From positions 1-64,000 of the forward strand of contig JAHFRP010000011.1 in assembly GCA_023266195.1 (NCBI GenBank): a DNA stretch of 64,000 bases, in the 5' to 3' direction. A program made the position numbers and the translations under genes. The stretch is from Sulfuricella sp. GTDB taxonomy: Bacteria > Pseudomonadota > Gammaproteobacteria > Burkholderiales > Sulfuricellaceae. The notes under the pieces were generated by a model, which was not told where the DNA came from, ran no database searches, and saw nothing but the letters and a program-made list of their open reading frames with translations. Shown piece by piece: positions 1,500 through 17,979 of the stretch (within the stretch, counting starts at the first letter, position 1; the number at the start of each line of letters is the position of its first letter).

Positions 1500-1766
1500 T
1501 CAGAACGTCGTGCATTGCATGAAGCCGCGATGCCCGAAGCAATTGGTCGTGGCCGGATATCCGCGCTGGTAGCTGTCCTTTTCGCTGAGCCGCAATATGC
1601 ATTGCCGCCAGGGGTCGGAGTCCGCCTTGTATCCGAGCTTTTCGCAGGCGGGGCCGTAGACCTGGATCATCTCGTCGACTTCGCGCTGAACCTGAGCCGC
1701 CCTTTCGGCCGGAGTTGCACAGCCGGCCAATGCCGCGATGACGGCGAGAAACATGAGAATCCGCAT
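1500..1766 (-). CDS. Small lipoprotein of unknown function
   Basis: An 88-residue protein that begins MRILMFLAVIAALAGCATPA, a classical lipoprotein signal with lipobox LAGC, so it should be acylated and anchored in a membrane. The mature part contains four cysteines (in CEKLGY, QCIL, NCFGH and QCTTF) that could form disulfides in the periplasm. The ATG at 1766 has a strong Shine-Dalgarno (AAGGAGA, about 6 bases upstream). Longer versions run into the repeat at 1793-1865 and are artefacts. I do not recognise a family. Confidence 0.7.
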   Translation of the reverse strand: MRILMFLAVIAALAGCATPAERAAQVQREVDEMIQVYGPACEKLGYKADSDPWRQCILRLSEKDSYQRGYPATTNCFGHRGFMQCTTF

Positions 1767-1902: not shown

Positions 1903-3852
1903 TTATTCCACTTTCAACCTTTCCAGCGGCAGGCGCAGGGAGCGCGCCGTTGCCGCCCGGCCTGCGCCGATCCGGCCCATGAATACCGCGTTTTCCGTGT
2001 CTTTCCCGATCAGCCGGGCGAGTCGGGTGGACAGGCGCCGTGCTTTGCCGAAACTGTCCGGCTTTTCTGAAAACTGGATGCGTTCGCGCGCATAGGCGGA
2101 AAAGATCAACGGCGTCATCTCGGGCTGCAATTGCAGCCCGAGCCGGGTGGCGGTGAGCCAGAAGCGCTGCATCGCGCGGCCGGCGGCGACATAATCGTCG
2201 ACGGATTCGGGGCGCTCGCGCGCGATCAGGACAAAGTGGGCGGCGCAGGCGACGGCCGGCACAAAATCGAGCTGGAGCTTCGGCATCATCGTGCCGGCGA
2301 GGTAAGCGTTGAAAAATGCGACGCGTGCCCAGCTCTGCATCGCCCAGCGCATCAGGCGCAAGGTCAGCTTGTCGAGACCGATGGCCTGGTCCGGTACGCG
2401 ATCCTCGCTGAAACTGGCGTTCCACTCGATGACGTCGCGATGCACCCGGTAGGCTTCCGGCAGGGTGAGGCGCAGTTCGGCGGCACGCGACATCAACGCG
2501 GCAACGTCGAGCTTGCGGGCGAAGCCTTCCAGCCAGACGATCCGGTAGGCGTCGCCCGCGGCGGATTCCAGCGCGGTTTTTTCGTGCTTGAGCAGCGGGC
2601 GCATGCGCATCGGGCGGCGCTGCACCGAGCGTATCGGGATGTAAGGCAGCAGCGGGTCGGGCTGGACGGTTGAATCAGGAATGAACTCCACGTCGAACAC
2701 CGGTTTGTCGTCCGGCTCGCCGCCGCGGCGCGCAATTTCCGCGCGCAGGCCGTGCGCGCTGGCGGCGATGCGGATGTTTTCGAGCAGCGTGCCGAGCGCG
2801 ATCTGGCTGGGGCGGCCGTTCACGTCGTAGATGCAGTGCTCGCGCGTGTCGAAGCCGTGCACCGCGATGCGGTGCTGGTCGAGGATTTCGAAGCGCCACA
2901 CCTGGGTGTTGTCGCCGCTCGGCGCCCAGCGCGCGACGTCGAGGATCTGCTCGATCACCGTAAAGGGTTTTTTCGGGATGTCCGGGGCGAAGGCCGGCAT
3001 CGCCGCCAGCCGCCGCCGCGCGATGGCGAGGCCGAGGCGCTGGAGCGGATTGGCGTTGCCCCACGGACGCCAGGTGTAGGCCAGCTTGCCGCGGTGGGCG
3101 TCGAAATGCAGCCCCCATGGCGCCGCCCGCACCTTGCCGCGATGCAGCAGCAGCTTCATCGCCTCGGTCGCGGCCAGGCCCGCGCACAACTGGCACGCCA
3201 TCACGGTGGACGGCCCCCGTTTTTCCGCCAGGTTGACCCGGCTTTTATCCACCAGGTAAGACATCTGCAGCATGGCGGGGGAGAGCCCGAGCAGGAAGCG
3301 GATGGCCTGTTCTTCTTCGGGCTGGCCCTGCACCCGGAAGTATTCCTCGAAGGTCATTTGCCCCGGCAGGAAGTTCAGGATCGCCGCGCCCATGCCGAGC
3401 GGCGCGGCGGTGACCGCCGGGATGCCTTTTTCCCCACAGGCGGCGAACACCGCCTGGCGGGCGGCGAAGGCAAAGAAATCCAGTCCGTCCACATACACGT
3501 CCACCCCGGCCAGGAACTCGTCCAAATTTTCTCCGGTGACGCCTTGGCGGAACACCTTGATTTCCAGCTCCGGGTTGATGTTCCGCGCCATCTCGGCGAG
3601 CACGTCGGCCTTGCGCCGCCCCAGGCTCGCCGTGGTCGCGCCGGCCTGGCGGTTGAAATTGGCGATGTCGAAAGTGTCGAAATCGGCGATGTGGAATGCC
3701 CCGATGCCCAGCCGCGCCAGGGTGAGCAGGTGGCTGCCGCCGACGCCGCCCAGGCCGGCGATGGCGACCCGTTTGGTGCGCAGGATTTCCTGCTCGTGCC
3801 GGGTCACCCAGCCCAGGTTGCGGGAGAAGGCATCGTGGTAGGAAAAAAACAT
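1903..3852 (-). CDS. ThiF/MoeB-type adenylyltransferase fused to nitroreductase (Rv1355c family)
   Basis: A 649-residue two-domain protein. The N-terminal half is an E1-like ThiF/MoeB/HesA domain with GLGGVGG (residues 33-39), ADFDTFD and NFNRQ motifs for ATP binding and carboxylate adenylation. The C-terminal half (from about residue 300, RWAPSGDNTQVWRFE) is a flavin nitroreductase fold. This order matches the mycobacterial Rv1355c/MoeY family. No clear E1 catalytic cysteine or CxxC zinc site is seen. The ATG at 3852 starts a typical N-terminus; an ATG at 3939 is possible but gives an unlikely leader. It lies 112 bases downstream of the FeeM-like gene on the same strand, so the two probably form one operon acting on an acyl-amino-acid or small peptide product. 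The substrate is unknown. Confidence 0.75.
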   Translation of the reverse strand: MFFSYHDAFSRNLGWVTRHEQEILRTKRVAIAGLGGVGGSHLLTLARLGIGAFHIADFDTFDIANFNRQAGATTASLGRRKADVLAEMARNINPELEIKVFRQGVTGENLDEFLAGVDVYVDGLDFFAFAARQAVFAACGEKGIPAVTAAPLGMGAAILNFLPGQMTFEEYFRVQGQPEEEQAIRFLLGLSPAMLQMSYLVDKSRVNLAEKRGPSTVMACQLCAGLAATEAMKLLLHRGKVRAAPWGLHFDAHRGKLAYTWRPWGNANPLQRLGLAIARRRLAAMPAFAPDIPKKPFTVIEQILDVARWAPSGDNTQVWRFEILDQHRIAVHGFDTREHCIYDVNGRPSQIALGTLLENIRIAASAHGLRAEIARRGGEPDDKPVFDVEFIPDSTVQPDPLLPYIPIRSVQRRPMRMRPLLKHEKTALESAAGDAYRIVWLEGFARKLDVAALMSRAAELRLTLPEAYRVHRDVIEWNASFSEDRVPDQAIGLDKLTLRLMRWAMQSWARVAFFNAYLAGTMMPKLQLDFVPAVACAAHFVLIARERPESVDDYVAAGRAMQRFWLTATRLGLQLQPEMTPLIFSAYARERIQFSEKPDSFGKARRLSTRLARLIGKDTENAVFMGRIGAGRAATARSLRLPLERLKVE

Positions 3853-3889
3853 ATGGAGTTGGATGATCCTGAAAAAGCGGTTGAGTCCA

Positions 3890-3957
3890 ATAAATGAATT
3901 TTGAATGCAGGTGTCGCTACGCGGTTTTTTAAAATTCAAAATTCAAAACTAAAAATT
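3890..3957. repeat. AT-rich inverted repeat between the two genes
   Basis: GAATTTTGAAT faces ATTCAAAATTC across a short GC-rich loop and is followed by another TTCAAAAC unit. It can form a hairpin between the FeeM-like gene and the ThiF fusion gene. It could reduce read-through or stabilise mRNA. No U-tract typical of an intrinsic terminator follows on the minus strand. Confidence 0.35.
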
Positions 3958-3964
3958 GCCTTGG

Positions 3965-4747
3965 TCATGTCAACTCGCGCAGCCGTGCGGTGATGACGTC
4001 TTCCACGGCCTGGGAGAAAAAATAGGGGTAGAGGGATTTTTCCGCGCCGACATGCTCGGTGTGTCCGCCCAGCTTCTGGATCTGGCGATGGGCGTAGTCG
4101 AGTTCGAGCCAAAGCAGCACCGCCGGCGCGTTCACCCGGGGACAGGTCTTTTCTCCGCCGTGTTGCCTGAAGCCGAGCATTCTTTCGTAGAATTTGACGT
4201 GGCGCGGGTTGACCTCGATGAACAGGTCGGTGTGTTGCTGGATGTTGCGCGCGTAGATGTAGGAAATGTGGTACAGCGCGGCTAGCACCCGTTTCGAGCG
4301 GACGGAGCTGTCCACGGCCAGCTTGGTGAACTCGCATAGTTTGCGCCCCTCTTTCCGCAAGGGGTCGATTTCGGCTTTGTAGAGTTCGTCGACCAGAAGC
4401 CCGATGGGCGAATCGAAGCCCATGCTGATGGTGCCGACGACCTGCTGGTCGTGGGATGCGGTCAGGGTGATCCGGTTGGGATGCGGGGCGGTGGCGGCGG
4501 AGGGGTCGTAGCCCCGCCAGGAGTACATCTTGTTGATCAGCATGCTGGCCGGGTTGCGCTTGTTGCGCAGGTCGGCCAGCCGGATCTTGAAGATATTGCG
4601 CTCTATTGCGAAATCGTGGATGCCCGGCACGTCCGGCTGATCCAGGCACAGCGAGCGCGGACTGCGGGGGGCGTCGACCGGCACCCCGATAATCGTCCTG
4701 CCAGCCCAGTCGTCGTCCGGTTCTCGAATCTTGGCCATTTTCGTCAT
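3965..4747 (-). CDS. FeeM-like N-acyl amino acid synthase / GNAT-fold acyltransferase
   Basis: A 260-residue protein. The block from IERNIFKIRLADLRNKRNPA through the GTISMGFDSPIGLLVDELY segment to FTKLAVDSS and IEVNPRHVKFYERMLGF resembles FeeM-type N-acyl amino acid synthases, relatives of GNAT and LuxI acyl-transferases. These enzymes transfer a fatty acyl chain from acyl-ACP to an amino acid. The ATG at 4747 is preceded by GAGGG at good spacing; the ATG at 4831 has none. It is directly upstream of the ThiF/nitroreductase fusion. A role in a signalling or lipid-amino-acid product is inference. A LuxI AHL synthase is less likely because the family's fixed residues are not evident. Confidence 0.65.
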   Translation of the reverse strand: MTKMAKIREPDDDWAGRTIIGVPVDAPRSPRSLCLDQPDVPGIHDFAIERNIFKIRLADLRNKRNPASMLINKMYSWRGYDPSAATAPHPNRITLTASHDQQVVGTISMGFDSPIGLLVDELYKAEIDPLRKEGRKLCEFTKLAVDSSVRSKRVLAALYHISYIYARNIQQHTDLFIEVNPRHVKFYERMLGFRQHGGEKTCPRVNAPAVLLWLELDYAHRQIQKLGGHTEHVGAEKSLYPYFFSQAVEDVITARLRELT

Positions 4748-5318
4748 CGCCACCCTCAATGTTAAGACGGCTTGCAGGCTGCCTCGGGAAATGCTTAGTC
4801 GGAACTCGGGAAAATCCCTGATTTTTGACATGGATCAACCATCCCTGGTTCCCCGGAAAAGTAGAACGGCTGCGAGGGGTATCGAACCCTACTCAGCAAG
4901 CCGAATGCCACTTTAGTAACAAACTGATTAATAAACGATTAATTGTCGTCCGGTTCGTGGATGCGTCGCACAGTGTAAAAAATTCCGACATCGGGCGGGC
5001 CGGCCGGCTCAAGTGCAGCGGAACCGGCGATCCATCTCTCAAGAAATACCGCACAACCCATTGATTCTGCGTGGCACGCCGTGCGCGACAGCGGGCGCAA
5101 ATCGGTGCGCATGGCGCACCCTGGCTCGTCACCGGCGTGTCGGCTCTGCCGGGCTTGGCCGACCTGCCCGTGGGTGACTCCACGTGACCGCGCTTTTCTC
5201 CCGCCAGGCCGCGAGGTTGACAACCCGATTCTTTAAACTAAATTGAATTTACAAAGCGGACCCGCCTGTTTTCAGCGGCCTGATGGCGCAAGACTAATAA
5301 TATTGGGAGTAATGCCAA
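4748..5318. other. Intergenic region upstream of the polysaccharide locus
   Basis: About 570 bases between the divergent FeeM-like gene and the first polysaccharide gene. No convincing ORF. It contains a small hairpin CGTGG-GTGACT-CCACG (about 5169-5184), a candidate sigma-70 promoter (5217-5244), and a weak TGGCAC-N7-GC match to sigma-54 sites at 5072-5086 (the TT before the GC is missing). A long, structured leader ahead of an EPS operon suggests regulation, but no known riboswitch core was recognised. Confidence 0.5.
5217..5244 (+). promoter_or_regulatory. Candidate sigma-70 promoter of the XrtA polysaccharide operon
   Basis: TTGACA at 5217-5222 and TAAATT at 5239-5244, separated by 16 bases, lie about 75 bases before the GTG start of the export lipoprotein gene. 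The -35 is perfect and the -10 matches four of six positions. Confidence 0.4.
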
Positions 5319-5945
5319 GTGAATACATCGCGATTCTTGACCTGGTGGCTGTCGGGTTCGATCCTCGTCCTTTCCGTTTTTCTCGGCGCCGGCTGCGCCA
5401 CTACGCACTATCCGCCGGCACCGCAATCCGTCGCTCCCCCTTCCCACGATTACCTGATCGGGCCGGGTGACAGCGTCAACCTCGTCGTCTGGCGCAATCC
5501 GGAGGTTTCCATGGTCGTGCCGGTGCGCCCGGACGGGAAAATTACCACGCCGCTGGTGGAAGACCTGCCGGCCAGCGGGAAAACGCCGACCCAGCTGGCG
5601 CGGGATGTCGAGAAAGCGCTGTCGAAATATATCCAGGAGCCGGTGGTGACGGTGATCGTCAACGGCTTCGTCGGCCCTTACAGCGAGCAGATTCGCGTCA
5701 TCGGCCAGGCGGCGAAACCGCAGGCCCTGCCTTACCGCCAGAACATGACCGTGCTTGACGTGCTGATCGCGGTGGGCGGCATCACCGAATTCGCCGACGG
5801 CAACAAGGCGAGCATCCTGCGCACCGCGGGCGGGAGCCAGCAGTTCAATGTCCGGCTGAGCGACCTGATCAAGGACGGCGATGTTTCCGCCAATGTGGAA
5901 ATGCGTCAGGGCGATGTGCTCATCATTCCCGAGAGCTGGTTCTGA
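5319..5945 (+). CDS. XrtA-associated polysaccharide export lipoprotein (Wza-like)
   Basis: A 208-residue protein. The N-terminus is a lipoprotein signal with lipobox LGAGC (Cys26). A polysaccharide export domain begins at DYLIGPGDSVNLVVWRNPEV (about residue 44) and is followed by an SLBB-like domain (about 125-205). Such proteins form or gate the outer-membrane channel for exopolysaccharide. The start is GTG at 5319 with GGGAG about 10 bases upstream. It is the first gene of the operon and is followed 50 bases later by the chain-length protein. It matches the short export protein type specific to PEP-CTERM loci. Confidence 0.9.
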   Translation: MNTSRFLTWWLSGSILVLSVFLGAGCATTHYPPAPQSVAPPSHDYLIGPGDSVNLVVWRNPEVSMVVPVRPDGKITTPLVEDLPASGKTPTQLARDVEKALSKYIQEPVVTVIVNGFVGPYSEQIRVIGQAAKPQALPYRQNMTVLDVLIAVGGITEFADGNKASILRTAGGSQQFNVRLSDLIKDGDVSANVEMRQGDVLIIPESWF

Positions 5946-5995
5946 GGTGTGAGCGGTGAGCGGCGCCATGTCGGAAGGTAGTCAGGAGGCTTTAC

Positions 5996-7537
5996 ATGCA
6001 TGAATTGATCACCCAGTTTTTGTCTTATCTGAAGGCGGCATGGCAGCATCGCTGGTACGCCATCGTTGCCGCCTGGGCCATCGCGGTGTCGGGCTGGATC
6101 GTGGTGGCCATGATGCCGGATCGGTACGAGGCGTCGGCGCGAGTCTACGTCGATACCCAGAGCATCCTCAAGCCTCTGCTGTCGGGGCTGGCGGTGCAGC
6201 CCAACCTGGATCAGAAGATCGTCATGATGAGCCGCACGCTGCTTAGCCGCCCCAACGTGGAACGGGTGGTGCGCATGGCGGATCTGGACATCAATGTCAA
6301 AACGGCGGAAGACAAGGAAAGCTTGATCAATTCGATGATTTCGAAAATCGAGATCAAGAATACCGGGCAGGACAATCTTTATACGCTGGCCTATCGCGAC
6401 CGGAAGCCGGAGGTCGCCAAGCGCGTGGTGCAGTCGCTGCTGACGATTTTCGTCGAGGGCAGCCTGGGCGACAAGCGGAAGGACGCCGATTCGGCCAAGC
6501 GCTTCATCGACGACCAGATCAAGGCTTACGAGCAGAAACTGGTTACCGCGGAAAACGCCCTGAAGGAATTCAAACGCCAGCACATGGACACGATGCCGGG
6601 CGAAGGCCGGGATTATTTCGCCAAGCTGTCGGAGACGATGGAAAACCTGAGTCAGGCCAGGCTCGCCCTGCGCGAAGCGGAAAACGGCCGCGACGCGATC
6701 AAGAAGCAGCTTGCCGGCGACGACCTGGTGGTGCTGGACGAAAAGGATGCGGGCGCATCGTCCAATCCGGAAATCGATTCCCGTATTCAGGCGCTGAAAA
6801 AGAATCTGGACAGCCTTCAACTCAACTATACCGACCGGCATCCGGACATCGTGGCAGCCAAGCGCATCATCGAGCAGCTCGAGGAGCAGAAGAAGCAGGA
6901 AGCCAAGGCGAGAAAAGGCATCCCGGCGGCGCAGGCGCAGAATCCGGTGACCCAGCAGCTGAGGGTTTCGCTTGCCGACGCGGAAGCCGGCGCGGCTTCG
7001 ATGCGGGCGCGGGTGGCAGAGTACGAAAGCCGCTATAACCGGCTGAAAGCGGCGGCGGACGCGATTCCGCAGGTGGAAGCCGATTATACCCAGCTCAACC
7101 GGGATTATGAGGTCAACAAGGCCAATTACGAGAAGCTGCTGGCCACGCGGGATTCCGCGCAGATGTCGGGGGACATGGACGCCAATTCCGGCATCATGAA
7201 TTTCCGCATCATCGATCCGCCTCGCGTCCCGCTGGTGCCGAGCGCGCCGAACCGCCCACTGCTGACTTCGCTGGTGCTGCTCGGCGCTCTGGTGGGTGGG
7301 ATCGTGGTGGCCTTCCTGGTCAGTCAGTTCAGGCCGACTTTCAACGACCGGTGGACGTTGCGCCATGCGACCGGGCTGCCGCTACTGGGAGCGGTGTCGC
7401 TGATCTGGACCGATACCCAGAAGAAAAGGCAAAGAAGCAGTTTGGTCGCGACGGCAACGTCCACGCTGGGCCTGTTCGGCTCCTACGGCATTGTCATGGC
7501 GATCCTGTTTTTCAAGGCGGCCAGCACCAGTGTCTAG
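5996..7537 (+). CDS. XrtA-associated chain-length determinant (Wzz/PCP family)
   Basis: A 513-residue inner-membrane protein. A transmembrane helix lies at about residues 18-41, followed by a Wzz domain, a long coiled-coil periplasmic region (about 165-395) and C-terminal membrane segments near 420-447 and 482-510. Such proteins set polymer length together with the tyrosine kinase. The ATG at 5996 has AGGAGG about 8 bases upstream. The stop codon TAG (7535-7537) lies within the CTAG at the edge of MITE copy 2, so the element abuts or slightly truncates the 3' end. The kinase gene follows only after a 385-base repeat-filled gap. Confidence 0.9.
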   Translation: MHELITQFLSYLKAAWQHRWYAIVAAWAIAVSGWIVVAMMPDRYEASARVYVDTQSILKPLLSGLAVQPNLDQKIVMMSRTLLSRPNVERVVRMADLDINVKTAEDKESLINSMISKIEIKNTGQDNLYTLAYRDRKPEVAKRVVQSLLTIFVEGSLGDKRKDADSAKRFIDDQIKAYEQKLVTAENALKEFKRQHMDTMPGEGRDYFAKLSETMENLSQARLALREAENGRDAIKKQLAGDDLVVLDEKDAGASSNPEIDSRIQALKKNLDSLQLNYTDRHPDIVAAKRIIEQLEEQKKQEAKARKGIPAAQAQNPVTQQLRVSLADAEAGAASMRARVAEYESRYNRLKAAADAIPQVEADYTQLNRDYEVNKANYEKLLATRDSAQMSGDMDANSGIMNFRIIDPPRVPLVPSAPNRPLLTSLVLLGALVGGIVVAFLVSQFRPTFNDRWTLRHATGLPLLGAVSLIWTDTQKKRQRSSLVATATSTLGLFGSYGIVMAILFFKAASTSV

Positions 7538-7740
7538 GAGCCTGTCGGACTTGAAGAATCGAAGCGCAGAGGGCCAAGCAGGCAAGCCGCGAAGCGGATG
7601 CTCGCAAAATTCGGCTGGGCGAGGACGGATTTTGCCGGTTTTGCAGGTCAATAGTTATTCTATTGACCAAAAAAGCGGCGAAATATGGACCGGCCAGGCG
7701 GATTTGCAGCCGATTTCCTTTAAGCCCGACAGGCTCCCAG
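7534..7740 (-). mobile_element. MITE-like element, copy 2 (inverted, long form)
   Basis: The same family as 115-282 but in inverse orientation and about 40 bases longer, with an extra segment next to one terminus (GAAGCGCAGAGGGCCAAGCA and on). The left flank is CTAG, the right CCAG. The TAG of the left CTAG is the stop codon of the chain-length gene. It separates two genes that are normally adjacent in XrtA operons. Confidence 0.8.
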
Positions 7741-7850
7741 GGAAACGCCGATAAGTCGTCATCCTCGCGAAATCAGGGATCCAGGCGGTTGATTCGACTG
7801 GATTCCCGGCTTCGCGGGAACGACAAAAATAGGCTTGATCGGTGTTTCCC
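7741..7850. repeat. Second short inverted-repeat element
   Basis: It begins GGGAAACGCCGATAAG and ends CTTGATCGGTGTTTCCC, imperfect terminal inverted repeats. Inside are inverted GTCATCCTCGCG and CGCGGGAACGAC stretches. A related unit starting AGGGAAACGCTGAATAA lies at 14944-15045. It sits directly beside MITE copy 2. Confidence 0.5.
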
Positions 7851-7922
7851 TTGCAGCTCGTAGGTCGTTCGCGGTTTGTGGGCGCAGCGCGTGTTTTTTC
7901 CACCAGCTTGATGGGAGGTTGA

Positions 7923-8840
7923 GTGAGCATTATTGAAAAAGCGATGACTCGGCATGGACCGTTGGAGCCTGGCGGCCTGACTTTGATGCCGATCGAGCAC
8001 GAGGCGGCCGCTTCCGCCGAAAGTTTGATCGAGAAAGCCGCTAAAAAACAAAGCAGTGCAGAGGCGGACCGCGTTCCCGTGGCTGAGGATGCGCCGGCGG
8101 AAGCGCGCGCGGGCGACAGGTATTCACAGCTCGGTCAGATCAACCTGGTGAAGCTGCACAAGGCGGGCATGATCACGCCGGACGGCGAGAAATCGCAGAT
8201 CGCCGAGGAATTCCGGCTGATCAAGCGGCCCCTGATCACCAACGTGTTCAACCGGGCTGCGCCGGTAAAGAACGCCAACCTGATCATGGTCACCAGTTCC
8301 CTGCCGGGGGAAGGAAAGAGCTTTTGCGCCATCAACCTGGCAATGAGCATCGCCATGGAAATGGACCACACGGTTTTGCTGGTGGACGCCGACGTGGCGA
8401 AGCCGTCGCTGCCCGGATTCCTCGGCCTGAAGGCGGAAAAGGGGCTGATGGACGTCCTCCTCGACAACGAGCTGCAACTGTGCGACGTCATGATCAAGAC
8501 CAATGTCGAGAAACTTACCCTTCTTCCCGCCGGCCGGGGGAACCGCTACGCGACCGAGATGCTGGCGAGCGAGGCGATGAGCCGCCTGCTGCAGGAAATG
8601 GCGAACCGCTACCGCGACCGGGTCATCATTTTCGATTCCCCGCCTTTGCTGGCGACCACCGAGGCCCGCGTCCTGGCTACGCACATGGGCCAGATCGTCA
8701 TGGTGGTGGAGGCGGAAAAAACCACCGAGGATCAGCTTCAGGACGCGCTCGCCCAGATCGAATCCTGCGACGTGGTCGGCCTGGTGCTGAACAAAGGCAA
8801 GGCGCTGCTCGGCACGGACTATCCCCTGTACGGATACTGA
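7923..8840 (+). CDS. XrtA-associated tyrosine autokinase (BY-kinase)
   Basis: A 305-residue cytoplasmic kinase domain. Walker A is at SSLPGEGKS (about 125-133) and the bacterial tyrosine kinase Walker A' at VLLVDADVAKP (about 151-161). The Walker B region is VIIFDSPPLLAT. The C-terminus ends in a short tyrosine cluster, YPLYGY, the likely autophosphorylation site. It partners with the upstream Wzz-like protein to control polymerisation. The start is GTG at 7923 with GGGAGG about 6 bases upstream. No membrane segment is present, which fits the split kinase type of Gram-negative PEP-CTERM loci. Confidence 0.9.
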   Translation: MSIIEKAMTRHGPLEPGGLTLMPIEHEAAASAESLIEKAAKKQSSAEADRVPVAEDAPAEARAGDRYSQLGQINLVKLHKAGMITPDGEKSQIAEEFRLIKRPLITNVFNRAAPVKNANLIMVTSSLPGEGKSFCAINLAMSIAMEMDHTVLLVDADVAKPSLPGFLGLKAEKGLMDVLLDNELQLCDVMIKTNVEKLTLLPAGRGNRYATEMLASEAMSRLLQEMANRYRDRVIIFDSPPLLATTEARVLATHMGQIVMVVEAEKTTEDQLQDALAQIESCDVVGLVLNKGKALLGTDYPLYGY

Positions 8841-8850
8841 AAAAAAACCT

Positions 8851-10575
8851 GTGGATGCCATGAAAAAAAACAAGAAATCCAATTGCGCCCAGACTGTCAG
8901 ATCGTCCATCCGGAAAACGGCAATCGACCGCCGATGGGCACCGATTAACGCGGGTAAACACCATGAGACATCGGCGTTCAACCGCGTTGATCGGCGGTTA
9001 AGCCGGTTTTCACGGCCGGTCGCTCCACCGCCTCCGCTCGACCGGCCCATGTCCCCTTTGCCGCTCGCCTGTTCGGCGGCCTCGCTGCTGTTGCTGCTCT
9101 CGGGCAGTGCCGGCGCCGTCGAATGGACGCTCACCCCCAATCTGATGCTGGGCGAAAGCTATACCGACAATGTCGGGCTGGCGGCTCGCGGGCAGGAGCG
9201 GAGCGAATTCATCAGCCAGATCAACCCCGGCATTTCCCTGCGCGGGATGGGGCCGAGGCTGAACCTGGCCGCCAACTACCACCTGCAAACCCTGTTCTAT
9301 GCGAACGACAGCCGCAACAACACTTTCAACCATATGCTGGATGCGGCCGGCAATGCCGAGCTGGTGGACAACCTTTTTTACCTTGACGCCAGTGCCGGCA
9401 TTTCCCAGCAGAATCTTTCGCTGCTGGGGGCGCAGGCCGCGGACAACGGCAATGTCACCGGGAACCGCACGGAGGTGAAAACCCTCTCCCTCAGCCCCTA
9501 CCTGCACAAGAATTTCGGCATTATGGCCACGGGCGAGGCCCGCTACACCCACGAGATTGTGGATACGACGGCGGGAGGCTTCAACAGCCAGACCGATCGC
9601 GTCAATCTGCGGCTCAGCAGCGGCCCGGCTTACCGCCGGTTCGGCTGGGGGCTGGATTACTACAAGGACAGGGTGGATTTTTCCGGCATCCAGGAAAATA
9701 CCGAGCGGGAGACTTACACTGGCCGCCTGAGTTATCTGTTGAGGCCTGGGTTGAGTGTGCTGGGCACAGCGGGCCACGAAAAAAACAATTATCTGTTCAC
9801 CGGCCCCGCGCCGGAAGGCTCATTCTGGACTGCCGGCTTTTCCTGGGCGATCACGCCCCGCACCGAGCTCGACGCCTCGGTCGGCCACCGCTTTTTCGGC
9901 AACACCCATTCTCTCGCCTTCAGCCACCGGAGCCGGCATGCGGTCTGGAGCGTGAACTACAGCCAGGACATCGTAAACTCCCAGTCGCGGTTTTTCGTGC
10001 CCACTTCGCTGGACACAGCCAGCTATTTGAGCCAGCTGTTCGCGTCTTCCATTCCGGATCCCGTTCTGCGTCAGCAGTTTGTGGCAAATTTCATGCTCCA
10101 GACCGGGATACCTCTTAGCCTGTTCAATCCGCTCAATTTTCTTACCGATCAGACGTTCCTGGAAAAAAATCTGGCCGCCACGGTGGCGCTGACCGGGGTC
10201 AGGAACACGGTGGTGCTCCACTTGTTCGACCAGATCCGCGATGCCGCAACCATCGGCAACATCACCAGCGTTTTCCTCGGCAGCAACGATTTCACGCAGA
10301 GCGCCCACATCGAACAGCGGGGCGGCAGCGCGCTATGGAGCCTCCGCTTCGCGCCCCGCACCAGCCTGAATGCGAGCGGGGGGTATTCGCGCAATATCTT
10401 CCGCGACATCGGCCGCGAGGATCGCGACAAGTACCTGAAAGTCGGCGTGACCCGGCAAATCGAGCCCAAGATGACCGCATCGCTGGATTTTCGCCGGTTG
10501 CAGCGCGGCTCCAGCGTGAGCGGAGGAGATTACATCGAGAACGCGGTCTTGCTGACGCTTTACATGACATTTTGA
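8851..10575 (+). CDS. PEP-CTERM-associated outer-membrane beta-barrel protein (TIGR03016 type)
   Basis: The reading frame codes for 574 residues from ATG 8851. A secretory signal is visible only from the internal ATG at 9049 (MSPLPLACSAASLLLLLSGS, cleavage after AGA). The mature protein is rich in alternating aromatic/polar beta strands and ends in VLLTLYMTF, a terminal-phenylalanine outer-membrane signature. From 9049 it would have 508 residues. Neither start has a clear Shine-Dalgarno, and the sequence between 8870 and 9048 looks like spacer. It is probably a large outer-membrane barrel serving polysaccharide export; its exact role is unknown. It lies 10 bases after the kinase. Confidence 0.8.
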   Translation: MDAMKKNKKSNCAQTVRSSIRKTAIDRRWAPINAGKHHETSAFNRVDRRLSRFSRPVAPPPPLDRPMSPLPLACSAASLLLLLSGSAGAVEWTLTPNLMLGESYTDNVGLAARGQERSEFISQINPGISLRGMGPRLNLAANYHLQTLFYANDSRNNTFNHMLDAAGNAELVDNLFYLDASAGISQQNLSLLGAQAADNGNVTGNRTEVKTLSLSPYLHKNFGIMATGEARYTHEIVDTTAGGFNSQTDRVNLRLSSGPAYRRFGWGLDYYKDRVDFSGIQENTERETYTGRLSYLLRPGLSVLGTAGHEKNNYLFTGPAPEGSFWTAGFSWAITPRTELDASVGHRFFGNTHSLAFSHRSRHAVWSVNYSQDIVNSQSRFFVPTSLDTASYLSQLFASSIPDPVLRQQFVANFMLQTGIPLSLFNPLNFLTDQTFLEKNLAATVALTGVRNTVVLHLFDQIRDAATIGNITSVFLGSNDFTQSAHIEQRGGSALWSLRFAPRTSLNASGGYSRNIFRDIGREDRDKYLKVGVTRQIEPKMTASLDFRRLQRGSSVSGGDYIENAVLLTLYMTF

Positions 10576-10587
10576 TGGGGGCGAACA

Positions 10588-11601
10588 ATGTACGCAGCGT
10601 TTTATCACCTACGCGCCAAGCCATTCCAGCTCAGTCCCGATCCGGGGTTCTTTTTTGGCAGCAAGGGGCATCGGCGCGCCATGTCCTACCTGGAATACGG
10701 CCTGCACCAGGGCGAGGGTTTCATCGTGATCACCGGCGAGATCGGCGCCGGCAAGACCACGCTGGTGCGCAATCTGTTCAGCCGGCTGGAGACCGAACAC
10801 CTGGTTGCGGCCCAGCTGGTCAGCACCCAACTGGACGCGGAAGACACCTTGCGGATGGTGGCGGCGGCTTTCGGCCTGCCGCACGAACAAGCCAGCAAGG
10901 CGGTTTTGCTGCAAAAGCTGGAATGGTTCCTGGCTTCGTGCAAGGCGCAGGGTAAACGCGCGCTCCTGGTGGTGGACGAGGCGCAGAACCTGACGCCGAG
11001 GGCGGTGGAAGAGCTGCGCATGCTGTCCAACTTCCAGAGCGGGGACAAGTCGCTGCTGCAAAGCTTCCTGCTCGGCCAGCCCGAGTTCCGCTACACCATG
11101 CAGGGCGAGGGCATGCAGCAGCTGCGCCAGCGCGTGATCGCCTCCTATCACCTGGGGCCGATGGACGGCGACGAAACCCGCGCCTATATCGAGCACCGCC
11201 TGCACCGCGCCGGCTGGGACGGCGATCCGGTATTCAGCGAGGAAGCCTTTGGCGCAATTTATGCGAACACCGACGGCATTCCGCGGAAAATCAACGTGCT
11301 GTGCGACCGCCTGATGCTGATGGGCTACCTGGAGGAGATGCATGCGTTCGACGGCGCGGCCGTCAACGAGGTCAGCCGCGACATGCAGAAGGAAATGTCC
11401 ATTCCGCCGGCGCAAACCGGCCTCATCGCCGCGCCTGACCTGGAGGGGGCCTACGAGCGCGAGCTGGAAGCCCAGCTCGGACTGGCCAAGCTGAACGAGC
11501 GGATTTCCCAAATGGAACAGTCGGTATCCAACGTATTGAAGCTGCTGCGGGAGGTGCTGTCGCTCGCCCGCGTGCGGCGTCTTAGAGGGGAGGAAGAATA
11601 A
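10588..11601 (+). CDS. XrtA-associated ExeA-type ATPase
   Basis: A 337-residue AAA ATPase. Walker A is GEIGAGKTT (50-58) and Walker B is LLVVDEAQNL. The sensor/arginine region GIPRKINVLCDRLML is followed by a helical C-terminus. It resembles ExeA/GspA general secretion ATPases and the PEP-CTERM locus ATPase. It may energise or organise polymer export. Its last base overlaps the next start (TAATG at 11599-11603), which implies translational coupling to the epimerase gene. Confidence 0.88.
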   Translation: MYAAFYHLRAKPFQLSPDPGFFFGSKGHRRAMSYLEYGLHQGEGFIVITGEIGAGKTTLVRNLFSRLETEHLVAAQLVSTQLDAEDTLRMVAAAFGLPHEQASKAVLLQKLEWFLASCKAQGKRALLVVDEAQNLTPRAVEELRMLSNFQSGDKSLLQSFLLGQPEFRYTMQGEGMQQLRQRVIASYHLGPMDGDETRAYIEHRLHRAGWDGDPVFSEEAFGAIYANTDGIPRKINVLCDRLMLMGYLEEMHAFDGAAVNEVSRDMQKEMSIPPAQTGLIAAPDLEGAYERELEAQLGLAKLNERISQMEQSVSNVLKLLREVLSLARVRRLRGEEE

Positions 11602-12764
11602 TGCGGAGCACCGATTCCAGTTGCATGGCGCACAGCATCCTGTGCGTGGTGGGCGCCCGCCCGAATTTCATGAAAATCGCCCCGGTGATCGCCGCGCTGA
11701 ACAGCGCCTCGCCGCATTTTTTCGTGCGTCTGGTGCATACCGGGCAGCATTACGATGCGGCGATGAACCACCAGCACTTCGACGCGCTCGGCCTGCCGGC
11801 GCCGGACGTCAACCTGGAGGTCGGCTCCGCCAGCCATGCGGTGCAGACCGCCGAGATCATGCGCCGCTTCGAGCCGGTGCTGGACGAGGAACAGCCTTCG
11901 GCCGTGCTGGTGGTGGGCGACGTGAACTCGACCCTGGCCTGCGCCCTGGTGGCGGTGAAGAAGGGGGTGCCCGTGGTGCACGTCGAGGCCGGCCTGCGCA
12001 GCGGCGACCGTACCATGCCGGAAGAGATCAACCGCATCCTCACCGACCAGATTTCCGACCTGCTCTTCACCACCGAGCGCGATGCCCGCGCCAACCTGCT
12101 GCGCGAGGGCATCGGCGACGAGCGCATCCACTTCGTCGGCAACGTGATGATCGACACCCTGCACCACAACCTGAAGAAAGCCGTTCCCGTCGCCTGGACC
12201 ATGCGGCAGGCGGGGCTGGCGGATTGGGACCGGACCGGCGCCGGCTATGCGCTGCTGACCCTGCACCGCCCTTCCAACGTGGACGACCCCGACACGTTCA
12301 AATCCCTGCTCGAAAGCATCGCCGACCTCAGCCGCCGGCTGCCGGTGATCTTCCCGGTGCATCCGCGCACCCGGTCGCGGATGGAACAATACGGCCTCGC
12401 CCGCTTCATCGAAAACTTTCCGATCATGCAGATACCGCCGGTGGGCTACCTGGAAATGCTCGGCCTGATGAAGGACGCACGGCTGGTGCTCACGGATTCC
12501 GGCGGCATCCAGGAAGAAACCACCGCGCTCGGGGTGCCGTGCGTGACCCTGCGCAACAACACCGAGCGCCCGATCACGGTGAACGAGGGCACCAACGTCC
12601 TCGCCGGCAACGATCCGGGCCGCGTGCTCGCGGCCTGCGAAGAGATCCTGCAGAGCGGCGGCCGGGCGGGGCGAATACCGGAACTGTGGGACGGCCGGGC
12701 GTCGGAGCGGATCGCGGGAATCATGCAGGAATGGCTGGGCAACGGGCGGCGCATGGTGGCGTGA
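11601..12764 (+). CDS. wecB: UDP-N-acetylglucosamine 2-epimerase (non-hydrolysing)
   Basis: A 387-residue WecB/MnaA-type enzyme that interconverts UDP-GlcNAc and UDP-ManNAc. Motifs include VVGARPNFMKIAPV near the N-terminus, HVEAGLRSGDRTMPEEINR, LTLHRPSNVD and TDSGGIQEETTALGVP. It provides ManNAc-type precursors for the polymer. The start overlaps the upstream stop by one base. A slightly later ATG (at MAHSILCVVGARP) is a possible alternative. Confidence 0.92.
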   Translation: MRSTDSSCMAHSILCVVGARPNFMKIAPVIAALNSASPHFFVRLVHTGQHYDAAMNHQHFDALGLPAPDVNLEVGSASHAVQTAEIMRRFEPVLDEEQPSAVLVVGDVNSTLACALVAVKKGVPVVHVEAGLRSGDRTMPEEINRILTDQISDLLFTTERDARANLLREGIGDERIHFVGNVMIDTLHHNLKKAVPVAWTMRQAGLADWDRTGAGYALLTLHRPSNVDDPDTFKSLLESIADLSRRLPVIFPVHPRTRSRMEQYGLARFIENFPIMQIPPVGYLEMLGLMKDARLVLTDSGGIQEETTALGVPCVTLRNNTERPITVNEGTNVLAGNDPGRVLAACEEILQSGGRAGRIPELWDGRASERIAGIMQEWLGNGRRMVA

Positions 12765-14742: not shown

Positions 14743-14756
14743 ACGGGCGGTTGACC

Positions 14757-15048
14757 GCCTCCCCCTTTGAAAAAGGGGGGATTGAGGGGGATTTATCGGG
14801 GGTGGCTAGTTGTGACTTTGCTAAATCCCCCCTAACCCTCCTTTTTCACCCGCGAGGAGTGTCCCCGCCGGGTTCCCGCCGCTTCGCGGCGACCACGGCG
14901 AGACAAAGGGGGGAATGCCCTTGTTTCATATTGACTGTCTACTAGGGAAACGCTGAATAAATCAAAAATCGTCATTCCGGCGAAAGCCGGAATCCAGGTT
15001 TATCAGTGGATTACTGGATACCGGCTTTCGCCGGAATGACGAATCCAG
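14757..15048. repeat. Composite intergenic repeats
   Basis: This is a CCCCCTTT-GAAA-AAGGGGG hairpin with matching CCCCC/GGGGG stretches to 14923, then TTGACTGTCTACTAG. After that comes an element beginning AGGGAAACGCTGAATAA with GTCATTCCGGCGAAAGCCGG opposed by CCGGCTTTCGCCGGAATGAC. Similar pieces occur at 7741-7850, 32553-32620, 32682-32757 and 35030-35090. No gene is seen from 14743 to 15242. Confidence 0.6.
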
Positions 15049-15242: not shown

Positions 15243-16811
15243 ATGACACAGGAACAAGCCGCCCTGGCGGCGGGCCGGCGCTACGCCGCCGCGGCCGACC
15301 GCGACTGGCTCTACGCGGCCGCGTTGGCGGCGGGTTCGATCGTCTGGCTGCTGGCCTGGTATTGGCCGGCAGCCTGGTCGATCGTTTCCATCTGGATGCG
15401 CTCCGAGACCTTCGCCCACGGCTTCCTGATTTTTCCCGTCAGCGCCTACCTGGTCTGGAGCCGGCGGCGCGAGCTGGCGGCGCTCGTTCCGCAACCGGAC
15501 TACCGGGTGCTGCCGCTGTTGGCGGCGGCCGGGTTCGGCTGGATGCTCGCAAACCTGGCCGGTGTGCTCATCGTGCAGCAATACAGCCTGGTGATCATGA
15601 TCCCGCTGCTGGTGTGGCTGGTTCTCGGCAAGGAAGTGGCGCGCACGCTGGCTTTCCCGCTCCTGTTCCTGCTCTTCGCCGTGCCGGTGGGGGATTTCCT
15701 GCTGCCGCCGCTGATGGCCTACACCGCCGATTTCACCGTATTCGCGCTGCAGCTGACGGGCATCCCGGTTTACCGGGACGGGCTATTTTTCGCCATACCC
15801 AGCGGGCAATGGTCGGTGATCGAGGCGTGCAGCGGCCTGCGCTACCTCATTTCCTCCGTCACGCTGGGCTGGCTTTACGCCTACCTGACCTACCGCAGCA
15901 CCTGGCGGCGGGCGGTGTTCATCGTATTGTCGATGGTGGTGCCGATCGTCGCCAACGGGCTGCGCGCCTACATGATCGTGATGATCGGCCATCTGAGCGG
16001 GATGAAGCTCGCCACCGGGATCGACCACGTCATCTACGGCTGGGTATTTTTCAGCCTGGTCACGCTGATGCTGTTCTGGATCGGCTCGTTCTGGCGCGAG
16101 CAAGGCGATGCGGACACCGCGCAGCAGACAGCTCGACGGGTAGCGGCGGCGCAGCCGGCGCCGATGGCGCGGATCGCGCTGGCCACCCTGGCGGCCGGCG
16201 CCATGCTGGCGGTCTGGCCGCTCTACGCCGCCCGGCTGGAGACGGTCGGTTCACCCAAGCCGCCGCCGTTGGAGACACCCGCCGGCGGCGGTGGATGGCA
16301 GGCCGTGCCGGGAAAAATGACCGACTGGGCGCCGCATTTTCTCGGCCCGCGCGCCGAGGTCAACCAGGTTTACATCAAGGACGGGCGCCGGGTGGGGCTG
16401 TACATCGGCTACTACAATTACCAGCGCCAGGGGGTCGAGCTGATCAACTCCGAGAACGTTCTCGTCCCCACCGGCGATAAATCTTGGGCCAAATCCGGTG
16501 AGAGCCTGCGCGACTTCCGCCTTGGCGGGCGGCGGATAGCGGCCGTTCAGACGCGGCTGCGCGGGGTTCACGGCCACCTTCTGACCTGGAGCTGGTATTG
16601 GATCGAGGGCCAGCGTACCGTCAGTCCCTATTTTGGCAAGCTGCTGGAAGCCGTGGCCAAACTGTTCGCCACCGGGGACGATGCCGCCGTGGTGATCGTC
16701 TATGCCCCTTACGACGACCGCCCGGCAGAGGCCGAAGCGCCGATGCAGGACTTTGTCGAGCAGATGCTGCCGGCAACCGAAAGGAGTCTGGATGCGGCGA
16801 ATCGAGGCTGA
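15243..16811 (+). CDS. xrtA: Exosortase A fused to EpsI domain
   Basis: A 522-residue protein. The N-terminal half is a polytopic exosortase (transpeptidase-like membrane protease) with the family triad visible: Cys196 in IEACSGLRYL, Arg241 in NGLRAYMIV and His262 in GIDHVIYGW. It cuts C-terminal PEP-CTERM sorting signals on exported proteins. The C-terminal part (about 300-522) is an EpsI domain with a membrane segment and a periplasmic region. Fusion of XrtA to EpsI is known in betaproteobacteria. The ATG at 15243 has GGAG about 10 bases upstream. The next gene overlaps its 3' end by 20 bases. Confidence 0.93.
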   Translation: MTQEQAALAAGRRYAAAADRDWLYAAALAAGSIVWLLAWYWPAAWSIVSIWMRSETFAHGFLIFPVSAYLVWSRRRELAALVPQPDYRVLPLLAAAGFGWMLANLAGVLIVQQYSLVIMIPLLVWLVLGKEVARTLAFPLLFLLFAVPVGDFLLPPLMAYTADFTVFALQLTGIPVYRDGLFFAIPSGQWSVIEACSGLRYLISSVTLGWLYAYLTYRSTWRRAVFIVLSMVVPIVANGLRAYMIVMIGHLSGMKLATGIDHVIYGWVFFSLVTLMLFWIGSFWREQGDADTAQQTARRVAAAQPAPMARIALATLAAGAMLAVWPLYAARLETVGSPKPPPLETPAGGGGWQAVPGKMTDWAPHFLGPRAEVNQVYIKDGRRVGLYIGYYNYQRQGVELINSENVLVPTGDKSWAKSGESLRDFRLGGRRIAAVQTRLRGVHGHLLTWSWYWIEGQRTVSPYFGKLLEAVAKLFATGDDAAVVIVYAPYDDRPAEAEAPMQDFVEQMLPATERSLDAANRG

Positions 16812-17979
16812 CGCGCTGTTTCCCCGCAGCATGCCGGAACAGCCGCCGCTGGTGGCGCATGTCATCTACAGCCTGGCCGTGGGCGGCCTGGAAAACGGGG
16901 TGGTGAACCTGATCAACCATATCCCGCAGGACCGCTTTCGCCACGCCGTCATCTGTTTGGCCGACTATTCCGATTTCAGCCTGCGCATCCGCCGCAGCGA
17001 CGTGCAGCTTTATGCCCTCGACAAGCCCGCCGGCAAGAACTTCGGCGTGCACGTCAGGCTTTGGCGGCTGCTGCAGCGGCTGCGGCCGGACATCGTCCAC
17101 ACCCGCAACCTGGCTGCCCTGGAAAGCCTGCTGCCGGCGGCCCTGGCCGGGGTACCGGCACGGGTGCACAGCGAGCACGGCTGGGACATCGGCAACCTGG
17201 ACGGCGGCAACCGCCGCCATCGCCGGCTGCGCCGCCTGTTCCGGCCGCTGGCCCATCGCTACATTGCCCTGTCGAGGCATCTGGAGGCGTATTTGCGCGA
17301 GCAGGTCGGCGTCGCGCCGGAGCGGATCGTACAGATATACAACGGCGTCGATGCCGCGCTGTTCCGCCCGGCACAAGGCATGCGCCGTCCGCTGCCGTGC
17401 CGCGGCTTCGACGGCCCCGGCCGCTTCGTCGTCGGCACCGTGGGCCGGATGCAGGCGGTCAAGGACCAGCTGATCCTGGTGCGCGCGTTCATCCGGCTGC
17501 TGCAGACCGTGCCCGATGCGCACCGGTTGTTGCGCCTGGCGGTCATCGGCGACGGCCCGCTACGGCAGGAATCAATTCTCCTGCTGCGCCAGGCGGGGGC
17601 GCTGGACCTGGCCTGGCTGCCGGGGAATCGGGAAGATATTCCCGTCCTGATGCGCGGATTCGACCTGTTCGCCCTGCCGTCCCTGGCCGAGGGTATTTCC
17701 AACACCATCCTCGAAGCCATGGCGAGCGGATTGCCGGTGGTCGCGACCGATGTCGGCGGCAACCGGGAACTGGTGGAGCACGGACGCACCGGGCGCCTGG
17801 TGCCTCCCGGCGACCCGGAAGGCATGGCGGACGCGATTCGCCTCTACCTCAGCGACCGCGACCTGGGCGCAATGCATGGCCGCGAGGCGCGTCGCACCGT
17901 GGAGAGGCGATTTAGCCTGGAGACGATGGTGGCCGGCTACATGGATGTTTACCAGCGCGCACTGCAAGGCAAACGGTGA
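16792..17979 (+). CDS. XrtA-associated glycosyltransferase family 4 (TIGR03088 type)
   Basis: A 395-residue GT-B sugar transferase. The N-terminal domain begins VAHVIYSLAVGGLENGVVNL, and the C-terminal nucleotide-sugar site has FALPSLAEGISNTILEAMAS plus GLPVVATDVGGN. It adds a sugar to the lipid-linked repeat unit. The ATG at 16792 has AAGGAG seven bases upstream and lies inside the end of the xrtA gene, so the two are co-translated. It is the last gene of the core plus-strand operon. Confidence 0.88.
   Translation: MRRIEADALFPRSMPEQPPLVAHVIYSLAVGGLENGVVNLINHIPQDRFRHAVICLADYSDFSLRIRRSDVQLYALDKPAGKNFGVHVRLWRLLQRLRPDIVHTRNLAALESLLPAALAGVPARVHSEHGWDIGNLDGGNRRHRRLRRLFRPLAHRYIALSRHLEAYLREQVGVAPERIVQIYNGVDAALFRPAQGMRRPLPCRGFDGPGRFVVGTVGRMQAVKDQLILVRAFIRLLQTVPDAHRLLRLAVIGDGPLRQESILLLRQAGALDLAWLPGNREDIPVLMRGFDLFALPSLAEGISNTILEAMASGLPVVATDVGGNRELVEHGRTGRLVPPGDPEGMADAIRLYLSDRDLGAMHGREARRTVERRFSLETMVAGYMDVYQRALQGKR

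Follow-up and report, generated by a model that had tools for sequence, protein, structure and literature searches.

Two neighbouring genes on the minus strand of the window, which denotes the whole 64,000-nucleotide stretch of Sulfuricella sp. DNA analysed here, encode a FeeM-family N-acyltransferase (3965..4831; ORF of 288 aa) and, separated from it by 112 nt, a ThiF-nitroreductase fusion (1903..3852; 649 aa from ATG), which Pfam, NCBIfam and AlphaFold2 results mark as an OxzB/TrzS-like, predicted oxazolone synthetase. Pfam matches bear out the initial annotation, which had put a FeeM-like acyltransferase and an adenylating/flavin fusion next to each other at this position. Its boundary at 1903 is indeed the end of the fusion gene; the start that it gave at 4747 is a later in-frame ATG and was replaced by 4831, a start that is kept in the genome of the sister species (G001), where the acyltransferase aligned over residues 1-288 (92%).

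The acyltransferase matched the Pfam family FeeM (PF21926) with an E-value of 4.5e-57 and 192.7 bits, above the cut-off of 27, and the FeeM structure 2g0b at the sequence level with an E-value of 5.2e-14. Its conserved acidic residue Glu167 aligned to a Glu of FeeM (2g0b) and is probably the Glu that was mutated in Nas354 (PMC4897644); of 20 aligned rows, 17 have E at this position and 3 have D. A structure model computed from the single sequence had a pLDDT of 33.6. The possibility that the genome has a second FeeM gene was set aside because the whole-genome search gave one match only.

In the fusion protein, Pfam detected ThiF (PF00899; E 1.5e-43) and nitroreductase (PF00881; E 2.1e-10) domains. 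VIA-align and invariant residues delimit a ThiF/E1-like adenylation (cyclase) domain (approximately residues 1-285; 2998..3852, minus strand) and a flavin-dependent oxidase domain with a nitroreductase fold (approximately residues 296-649; 1906..2967, minus strand). The ThiF part exceeded the cut-off of NCBIfam PRK08223 (445.7 versus 266 bits). An AlphaFold2 model based on a 48-row alignment had a pLDDT of 90.7 and matched ThiF folds (VIA-align; 1zud, Z 27.1; 1zfn, Z 26.8) and the Acg homologue 2ymv (Z 29.5, rmsd 2.7 over 294 residues), and the matches to ThiF and to the Acg-type flavin fold extended over whole domains. MoeB is also among the fold matches. The adenylation residues G32, G34, G37, N64, R67, Q68, K80 and D124 (648-residue numbering) were invariant in all 48 rows, as were W308, S311, D313, N314 and Q316 of the oxidase domain. 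D124 aligned to an Asp of Escherichia coli ThiF and, by way of ThiF, is probably equivalent to D217 of TrzS. R460 and Q575 were likewise invariant (48/48), and their spacing resembles that of R540/Q651 in TrzS, the two pairs having been set side by side by spacing alone.

The gene pair recurs widely. A strong FeeM match and the ThiF occurred together in 17 of 100 genomes (own genome counted); the two genes lay within 300 bp of each other in 13 of these, the acyltransferase adjoined the oxidase-bearing ORF instead in three, and the two were 5 kb apart in one (G070). Among the 80 named loci, which are the best 80 of at least 510 confirmed and include near-copies (several Janthinobacterium; L066 and L067; L064, which is the sister species), an acyltransferase of either type was found within 1.5 kb in 55. 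The check set in advance by the initial annotation, namely that the two families be neighbours in other genomes, thus holds, and the pairing, which recurs in many genomes, is not a matter of chance. Gene arrangements vary: Nitratidesulfovibrio vulgaris has a one-gene triple fusion, two Massilia loci (L113, L117) have three genes in the order acyltransferase, ThiF, oxidase, and a match on a Rhodococcus plasmid has a ThiF gene of 840 bases, which is too short for a fused oxidase.

Related pathways have been characterized, and N-acyl oxazolone products have been demonstrated for OxzAB, TyzACB and TrzAS (PMC12856293, PMC10404671). OxzAB of Pseudoalteromonas rubra yields N-acyl tyrazolones and phenazolones (de Rond et al. 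2021, via PMC10404671 and PMC12856293) and, as described in these two papers rather than as compared by sequence, shares with the present locus the two-gene arrangement of an acyltransferase and a ThiF-oxidase fusion. Among the matches listed, the fusions of Rheinheimera, Pseudocolwellia and Alteromonas were 47-51% identical to that of the window; their loci have a TIGR03694-type acyltransferase, whereas that of the window is of the FeeM type and gave no TIGR03694 match at E <= 1e-3. TrzAS of mycobacteria likewise consists of an acyltransferase followed by a single ThiF-oxidase fusion. It corresponds to Rv1356c/Rv1355c and produces N-acyl tryptazolones, and Rv1355c was demonstrated in December 2025 to be TrzS, a cyclase/desaturase (PMC12856293), so that the Rv1355c family can no longer be called one without established function, as it had been in the initial annotation. 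Unlike TrzS, the fusion of the window falls below the cut-off of the Rv1355c/TrzS family (NCBIfam NF005901; 194.5 versus 476 bits), whose model matched its oxidase domain (residues 297-644). The setting also differs: TrzAS belongs to mycolic-acid bacteria, with cyclic-di-GMP genes adjoining the locus of M. tuberculosis (PMC12856293), whereas the pair of the window adjoins an XrtA locus. TyzACB of Mycobacterium tuberculosis, which makes C12:0-tyrazolone, has the same three predicted activities, distributed over three separate genes, whereas cyclase and oxidase are fused in the window.

The clusters for stieleriacine, kyonggic acid and thalassotalic acid, as far as they are covered by the available descriptions, also combine a NAS-type acyltransferase with ThiF and nitroreductase, and that of Stieleria maiorica contains a PEP-CTERM gene as well (PMC7293339). 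In contrast to the window, ThiF and nitroreductase are separate in these clusters, methyltransferases are present in Stieleria, and the same descriptions report no regulatory element. The outline proposed in the initial annotation, carboxylate activation and flavin chemistry acting on an N-acyl amino acid, therefore stands, whereas its novelty does not, since the architecture is that of OxzAB, TyzACB and TrzAS. Acyl amino acid synthases (NAS) are said to have been linked to exosortase since Craig et al. 2011. The present locus resembles this link in tying an acyl amino acid synthase to an exosortase system and differs in that the TIGR03694 acyltransferases belong to another subfamily than that of the window; in the portions of the literature available, we found no report of a ThiF-oxidase partner belonging to it.

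The large exopolysaccharide locus that had been noted next to the pair was found on the plus strand, divergent, from position 5319, and proved to be an exosortase A (XrtA) locus. Its first part (5319..12764) encodes an export protein, a chain-length determinant, a tyrosine autokinase, an outer-membrane protein (TIGR03016), an ATPase (TIGR03015) and a UDP-GlcNAc 2-epimerase, each over its NCBIfam cut-off. It is followed on the same strand by exosortase A with a C-terminal EpsI domain (15243..16811; TIGR03109, E 7.3e-107; TIGR02914, E 1.5e-39) and a glycosyltransferase of the PEP-CTERM/XrtA system (16702..17979; TIGR03088, E 2.3e-158), the longest start of whose ORF overlaps XrtA.

Upstream of the pair, also on the minus strand, lies a sigma-54 promoter-like site, TGGCATTCGGCTTGCT (4895..4910; TGGCAYN5TTGCW), 63 nt before the ATG of the acyltransferase, and 63 nt further upstream a PEP-CTERM box, TGTCGGAATTTTTTACA (4974..4990), which is a predicted PrsR site. 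The pattern TGGCAYN5TTGCW had a single exact match in the window; with one mismatch there were four matches, which is not above chance. The composite element of box, spacer and sigma-54 promoter occurred as an exact pattern at three places genome-wide, namely before two PEP-CTERM genes and this operon, and a reversed-pattern control at none; the exact letters of the box are post hoc, since it was picked out by visual inspection of three upstream regions before being searched genome-wide. The published PEP-CTERM element consists of a 17-nt motif ending in TTTACA, a spacer of 32-92 nt, a sigma-54 site and the ATG, with means of 62.8 and 71 nt (PMC1569441), and the element of the operon, with 63 nt for the spacer and 63 nt to the ATG, agrees with it in a comparison by layout, not by sequence logo. 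One PEP-CTERM gene of the genome has a spacer of 96 nt, above the maximum of 92 published in 2006; spacing and promoter type otherwise agree with that publication. The genome encodes PrsR (TIGR02915, E 1.2e-223) together with XrtA and PEP-CTERM proteins. From these cis-elements we infer that the operon would be controlled by PrsR and sigma-54 together with the PEP-CTERM genes of the genome, a regulatory link that is absent from the initial annotation.

Among 64 other operons, a box and sigma-54 site directly before the acyltransferase were found in three under a loose rule; the match was clean in the sister species only and weak in L049 and L041, and elsewhere the element is carried by the neighbouring PEP-CTERM gene. 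Sigma-54 sites with 10 of 11 matches were present in 7 of 66 upstream regions (window and sister species included); the reverse strand gave 1 of 66, and mononucleotide shuffles reached this score in 1.1% of cases. Because the signal is confined to this subset, we do not claim that sigma-54 sites precede these operons in general.

Co-occurrence extends the link to other genomes. Among 100 genomes, exosortase was present in 20 of the 21 with ThiF and in 10 of the other 79 (Fisher p 1e-12); among 148 genomes of the order of Rheinheimera, it was present in all 22 strong ThiF carriers and in 23 of the remaining 126 (Fisher p 4e-14), p-values that overstate independence because the genomes are related. 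The latter count leaves out two weak ThiF matches (G236 and G252; 35-39% identity), in which neither exosortase nor TIGR03694 was found; with these added, it becomes 22/24 versus 23/124. XrtA was above its cut-off in 8 of the 22 carriers of this order, and the other 14 carry an exosortase that falls short of it. TIGR03694 was present in every ThiF carrier of the order and itself confined to exosortase genomes (34/34), so that the ThiF link there may run via the acyltransferase. An oxidase of this family was not found at E <= 1e-40 in 18 of the 22 strong carriers, a threshold that weaker ones could escape, and of these 18 carriers, the 10 examined had none next to ThiF. Among genomes holding named loci (50 of the 80 tested), XrtA was above cut-off in 39 and an exosortase match was absent in four, including Undibacterium pigrum. 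The exosortase link is not universal: exosortase and PEP-CTERM also go unmentioned in the two mycobacterial papers, PMC12856293 included.

Related ThiF genes often have an exosortase-associated acyltransferase nearby and, often too, a PEP-CTERM gene next to them; several of these PEP-CTERM genes belong to the flocculation protein PepA family. PEP-CTERM-like ORFs were found in 45 of the 80 named loci (best 80 of at least 510), at a density of 0.138 per kb within 1.5 kb of the enzyme versus 0.020 beyond (approximately seven-fold); the regular expression used picks up a small number of spurious frames (e.g., L110 3272 and L117 14388), and its reversed-C-terminus control gave one ORF.

With ThiF and flavin-oxidase domains encoded next to its acyltransferase gene, the locus has the layout of an OxzAB/TrzAS-type pathway, and the pair very probably yields a fatty-acyl, amino-acid-derived oxazolone by chemistry known from other bacteria. 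We consider it likely that the pair constitutes an operon that is co-expressed with PEP-CTERM matrix proteins and directs the synthesis of an N-acyl oxazolone (azlactone) or of the N-acyl dehydro-amino acid to which this hydrolyses. The domains, the invariant adenylation residues and the confident model argue for placing the pair with OxzAB, TyzACB and TrzAS, the product being a predicted one. PrsR and sigma-54 would turn the operon on alongside the PEP-CTERM genes, and by homology the FeeM-family enzyme would acylate an amino acid, tyrosine or phenylalanine being the likeliest, with a fatty acyl chain donated by acyl-ACP or acyl-CoA. The ThiF domain, which has the active-site motif, would then adenylate the carboxylate, and the amide oxygen would close the five-membered oxazolone ring, as in TrzS, TyzB and OxzB. 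The flavin oxidase domain, the fold of which is seen in the model, would desaturate the C-alpha/C-beta bond using O2, and the product may act within or at the exopolysaccharide/PEP-CTERM matrix, whether as a signal, a surfactant, an antibiotic or an acyl donor. An O2-dependent step is odd for the triple fusion in N. vulgaris, a sulfate reducer and an anaerobe.

The end product might instead be an open-chain N-acyl dehydrotyrosine of the kyonggic acid, thalassotalic acid or stieleriacine type, with the oxazolone as a short-lived intermediate that hydrolyses, a reading that we hold possible though somewhat doubtful. Producers of N-acyl dehydrotyrosines have clusters of NasY, ThiF and nitroreductase in which oxazolone was not seen (PMC12479983), acid hydrolyses and alcohols cleave oxazolones (PMC12856293), and the three-gene order of the Massilia loci also favours it; yet oxazolones are reported for OxzAB and are recovered from TyzACB and TrzAS by mild quenching and extraction (PMC12856293, PMC10404671), and the extraction procedure may account for their absence elsewhere. 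That the ThiF domain performs classic E1 chemistry, activating a protein or small sulfur carrier, with a separate oxidase and the acyltransferase as a bystander, would suit the fold matches to ThiF and MoeB and the genomes in which the partners lie apart (G070, G053, G097). It is scarcely credible, since all three domains recur side by side or fused, in one case as the one-gene triple fusion, and since characterized homologues use N-acyl amino acids (PMC12856293).

An ordinary secondary-metabolite pair for a surfactant or antibiotic, near exosortase loci only since both are frequent in biofilm-living Proteobacteria, is unlikely. N-acyltyrosine biosurfactants are also made by synthases in other settings (PMC4897644), and exosortase was undetectable in the four carriers mentioned above; however, a control element shared by only three sites in the genome, the density of PEP-CTERM genes beside the enzyme and the 22/22 co-occurrence in a second order together exceed what a shared lifestyle would suggest. 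With still less probability, the pair in exosortase-bearing bacteria might make an activated lipid, the azlactone being an electrophile that acylates amines or hydroxyls of exopolysaccharide, of a PEP-CTERM protein or of the exosortase acceptor, with ThiF (with or without oxidase) as the core and the flavin domain for tuning; exosortase cargo or matrix sugar would then bear an acyl (dehydro)aminoacyl group.

The oxazolone-type chemistry of the pair is already known, and what is added is its exosortase/PEP-CTERM context. Given the rare composite element, the co-occurrence, and the acyltransferase and PEP-CTERM neighbours, it looks as if many oxazolone-type pathways of proteobacteria serve the exosortase/PEP-CTERM matrix system as accessories. 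Reportedly, no mechanism has been offered for the NAS-exosortase link in the years since Craig et al. 2011. The authors who described both mycobacterial pathways count the physiological function of bacterial oxazolones among the major unresolved questions (PMC12856293). The rare common control element and the common neighbours connect these two questions, and the exosortase/PEP-CTERM context provides a testable lead on the purpose of oxazolone compounds.

The N-acyltransferase gene (3965-4831, minus strand), which matches the FeeM structure 2g0b (E 5.2e-14, sequence comparison), is separated by 112 nt from a gene (1903-3852, minus strand) encoding a 649-aa fusion whose N-terminal ThiF/E1 domain is followed by a C-terminal domain of the nitroreductase type. 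The large EPS locus noticed beside the pair in the initial annotation is an exosortase A exopolysaccharide locus, which begins at 5319 on the plus strand, divergent from the pair, and encodes an export protein, a chain-length determinant, an autokinase, TIGR03016, TIGR03015, an epimerase, XrtA and a TIGR03088 glycosyltransferase, all above cut-off. Three long ORFs in or near this locus (13686-14945, 18482-20929 and 22031-23548) gave no NCBIfam match at E <= 1e-15 and no Pfam match at E <= 1e-6; some of them may be wrong frames. A predicted lipoprotein of 88 aa (1500-1766, minus strand; LAGC lipobox identified by eye) is encoded immediately 3' of the fusion gene, and the sister species was the sole other carrier in the 100 regions searched.

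The structure of the fusion was modelled on an alignment of 48 fusions (pLDDT 90.7). The N-terminal part resembled Escherichia coli ThiF (1zud; Z 27.1, rmsd 2.4, 229 residues) and the C-terminal part the Acg homologue of Mycobacterium smegmatis (2ymv; Z 29.5, rmsd 2.7, 294 residues), which the accessible text of PMC12856293 also names as the closest solved oxidase for TrzS. The adenylation residues G32, G34, G37, D58, N64, R67, Q68, K80 and D124 and the flavin-site region W308, S311, D313, N314 and Q316 (648-residue numbering; +1 in the full protein) were invariant in 48/48 fusions. The fusion has an intact-looking E1-type ATP site and an Acg-type flavin fold, and we infer that it is enzymatically active. 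The ThiF part exceeded the PRK08223 cut-off of NCBIfam; membership of the fusion in the NCBIfam Rv1355c family was ruled out by a score below the cut-off (194.5 vs 476 bits).

According to the accessible text of PMC10404671 and PMC12856293, N-acyl oxazolones are made by OxzAB (Pseudoalteromonas rubra), TyzACB and TrzAS, each of which combines an N-acyltransferase with a ThiF cyclase and a flavin-dependent oxidase; the pair can be likened to these systems. The latter source equates Rv1355c with TrzS, so that the initial annotation erred in regarding the Rv1355c family as lacking an established function; its suggestion of adenylation plus flavin chemistry was right, though already described for these three systems. 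Related clusters of NasY, ThiF and nitroreductase are carried by producers of N-acyl dehydrotyrosines, as stated in the accessible text of PMC12479983. By homology, the pair appears to be a well-formed member of the oxazolone kind of pathway, and its chemistry is predicted with high confidence.

Among 100 genomes (own and 99 relatives), the specific ThiF (E < 1e-40) and a strong FeeM match (E < 1e-20) each occurred in 21 and both together in 17 (Fisher p 4e-12), and XrtA exceeded its cut-off in 20/21 genomes with ThiF vs 10/79 without (p 1e-12), both p-values being inflated by the kinship of the genomes. The adjacency of the two families is conserved, with distances of <=300 bp in 13 of the 17 genomes; in three further ones the acyltransferase adjoins an oxidase-bearing ORF, and in genome G070 FeeM and ThiF lie 5 kb apart. 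The window arrangement recurs in genomes G001 (sister species), G052, G065 and G096, the three domains are encoded by separate genes in G005, G010, G011, G034 and G048, and a single 974-aa gene for acyltransferase, ThiF and oxidase is present on plasmid pDsulf-L2-1 of Nitratidesulfovibrio vulgaris (locus L041:11077-14001), a sulfate reducer in which an O2-dependent oxidase is unexpected. In a ThiF tree of 115 rows, the fused state requires 12 changes, at least four of them forced by well-supported branches.

Among 80 named loci (the best 80 of at least 510 confirmed, near-copies included), an acyltransferase was present within 1.5 kb in 55 (17 of FeeM type, 38 of a second type, by profiles made for this analysis) and not found within this distance in 25, where some contigs end close by. 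Ten upstream genes scanned comprised six TIGR03694 members (the exosortase-associated acyltransferase family), one chemoreceptor and three without match. Five loci (L049, L050, L051, L060 and L112) have two acyltransferase genes at or near ThiF, which suggests two or more acyl amino acid products; in L163 (Rhodococcus qingshengii plasmid pN9T4-3), an IS256-family transposase separates a GNAT N-acyltransferase and the ThiF gene, possibly an interrupted pair.

Fifty genomes holding loci from these best 80 of at least 510 showed XrtA above cut-off in 39, a weaker match in seven and no detectable exosortase in four, including Undibacterium pigrum. A second set comprised 148 genomes from the order that includes Rheinheimera. 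With exosortases called at E <= 1e-30 against the XrtA model, one was present in 22/22 strong ThiF carriers (above the XrtA cut-off in eight) vs 23/126 others, and TIGR03694 in 22/22 vs 12/126. The TIGR03694 gene lay within 5 kb of ThiF in 20 of the 22 carriers and within 300 bp in nine. Because ThiF occurred in 22/34 of the 45 exosortase genomes of this order with TIGR03694 and in 0/11 without, the link between ThiF and exosortase may run through the acyltransferase. A flavin oxidase of this family (E <= 1e-40) was not found in 18 of the 22 carriers, nor one beside ThiF in the ten of these 18 that were examined, so that the constant part in this order is acyltransferase plus ThiF, not desaturation. 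Ten loci of this order (L144-L147, L149-L151 and L153-L155) combine a TIGR03694-type acyltransferase with a stand-alone PRK08223-like ThiF (54-64% identity to the window domain) and no flavin oxidase nearby; in L149, two PEP-CTERM genes separate the two. A more distant ThiF (42-47% identity) is encoded in loci L044, L045, L046 and L047 of four XrtA genomes (G019, G017, G069 and G020) that have no PF21926 match, and in L044 it adjoins a PEP-CTERM gene with box and sigma-54 promoter.

PEP-CTERM-like ORFs were present in 45 and composites of PEP-CTERM box (predicted PrsR site), spacer and sigma-54 site in 44 of the best 80 of at least 510 loci (51 composites in total; none in 5 x 80 Markov controls). 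Such ORFs were about seven times as dense up to 1.5 kb from the enzyme (31 in 225 kb) as at greater distances (21 in 1042 kb). Six of ten scanned neighbours exceeded the PepA-family cut-off, two fell just below, one was EDSAP-1 and one unmatched; PepA is a flocculation-associated family, and in Aquincola, pepA depends on sigma-54 and has a role in flocs (PMC9850573, accessible text). The N. vulgaris triple fusion has XrtA exopolysaccharide genes on one side and, on the other, two PEP-CTERM genes of the THxN family.

Proteobacterial PEP-CTERM genes are preceded by a 17-nt motif ending in TTTACA; a spacer of 62.8 nt on average (32-92) leads to a sigma-54 site, which lies on average 71 nt before the ATG, and a few additional sites precede other genes (Haft et al. 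2006; PMC1569441, accessible text). Upstream of the window acyltransferase gene, we found TGTCGGAATTTTTTACA, 63 nt, TGGCATTCGGCTTGCT, 63 nt and the ATG. PF07589 identified two PEP-CTERM genes in the genome (3.12 Mb, 36 contigs), both with the same elements (spacers 63 and 96 nt); further ones may exist because, as of 2006, this model missed some PEP-CTERM proteins (PMC1569441, accessible text). A genome-wide search placed the composite pattern at three sites, before the operon and before both PEP-CTERM genes (four matches, two overlapping), and the reversed pattern at none. The predicted activator PrsR is encoded about 3.6 kb from one PEP-CTERM gene (E 1.2e-223, above cut-off), and in the sister species the element is retained, its spacer being 52 nt long. 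Among 64 other operons tested, an element directly 5' of the biosynthetic operon was clean in this genus only; in other genomes, the adjacent PEP-CTERM gene has it instead. Strong sequence evidence argues for a control element common to the operon and the PEP-CTERM genes of this genome.

Acyl amino acid synthases were reportedly linked to PEP-CTERM/exosortase by Craig et al. in 2011. The stieleriacine cluster contains a PEP-CTERM gene (PMC7293339, accessible text). Our search of the accessible literature yielded no statement placing an oxazolone synthetase in the PEP-CTERM system, though de Rond 2021 may comment on the link; exosortase and PEP-CTERM are unmentioned in the accessible text of the two mycobacterial oxazolone papers (PMC10404671, PMC12856293), and both terms are absent from that of PMC12479983. 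Oxazolone-type chemistry itself is already described; the assignment of an oxazolone-type pair to the exosortase/PEP-CTERM system, as proposed here from genomic context, would be new and testable. It would also offer a lead on what the molecule does.
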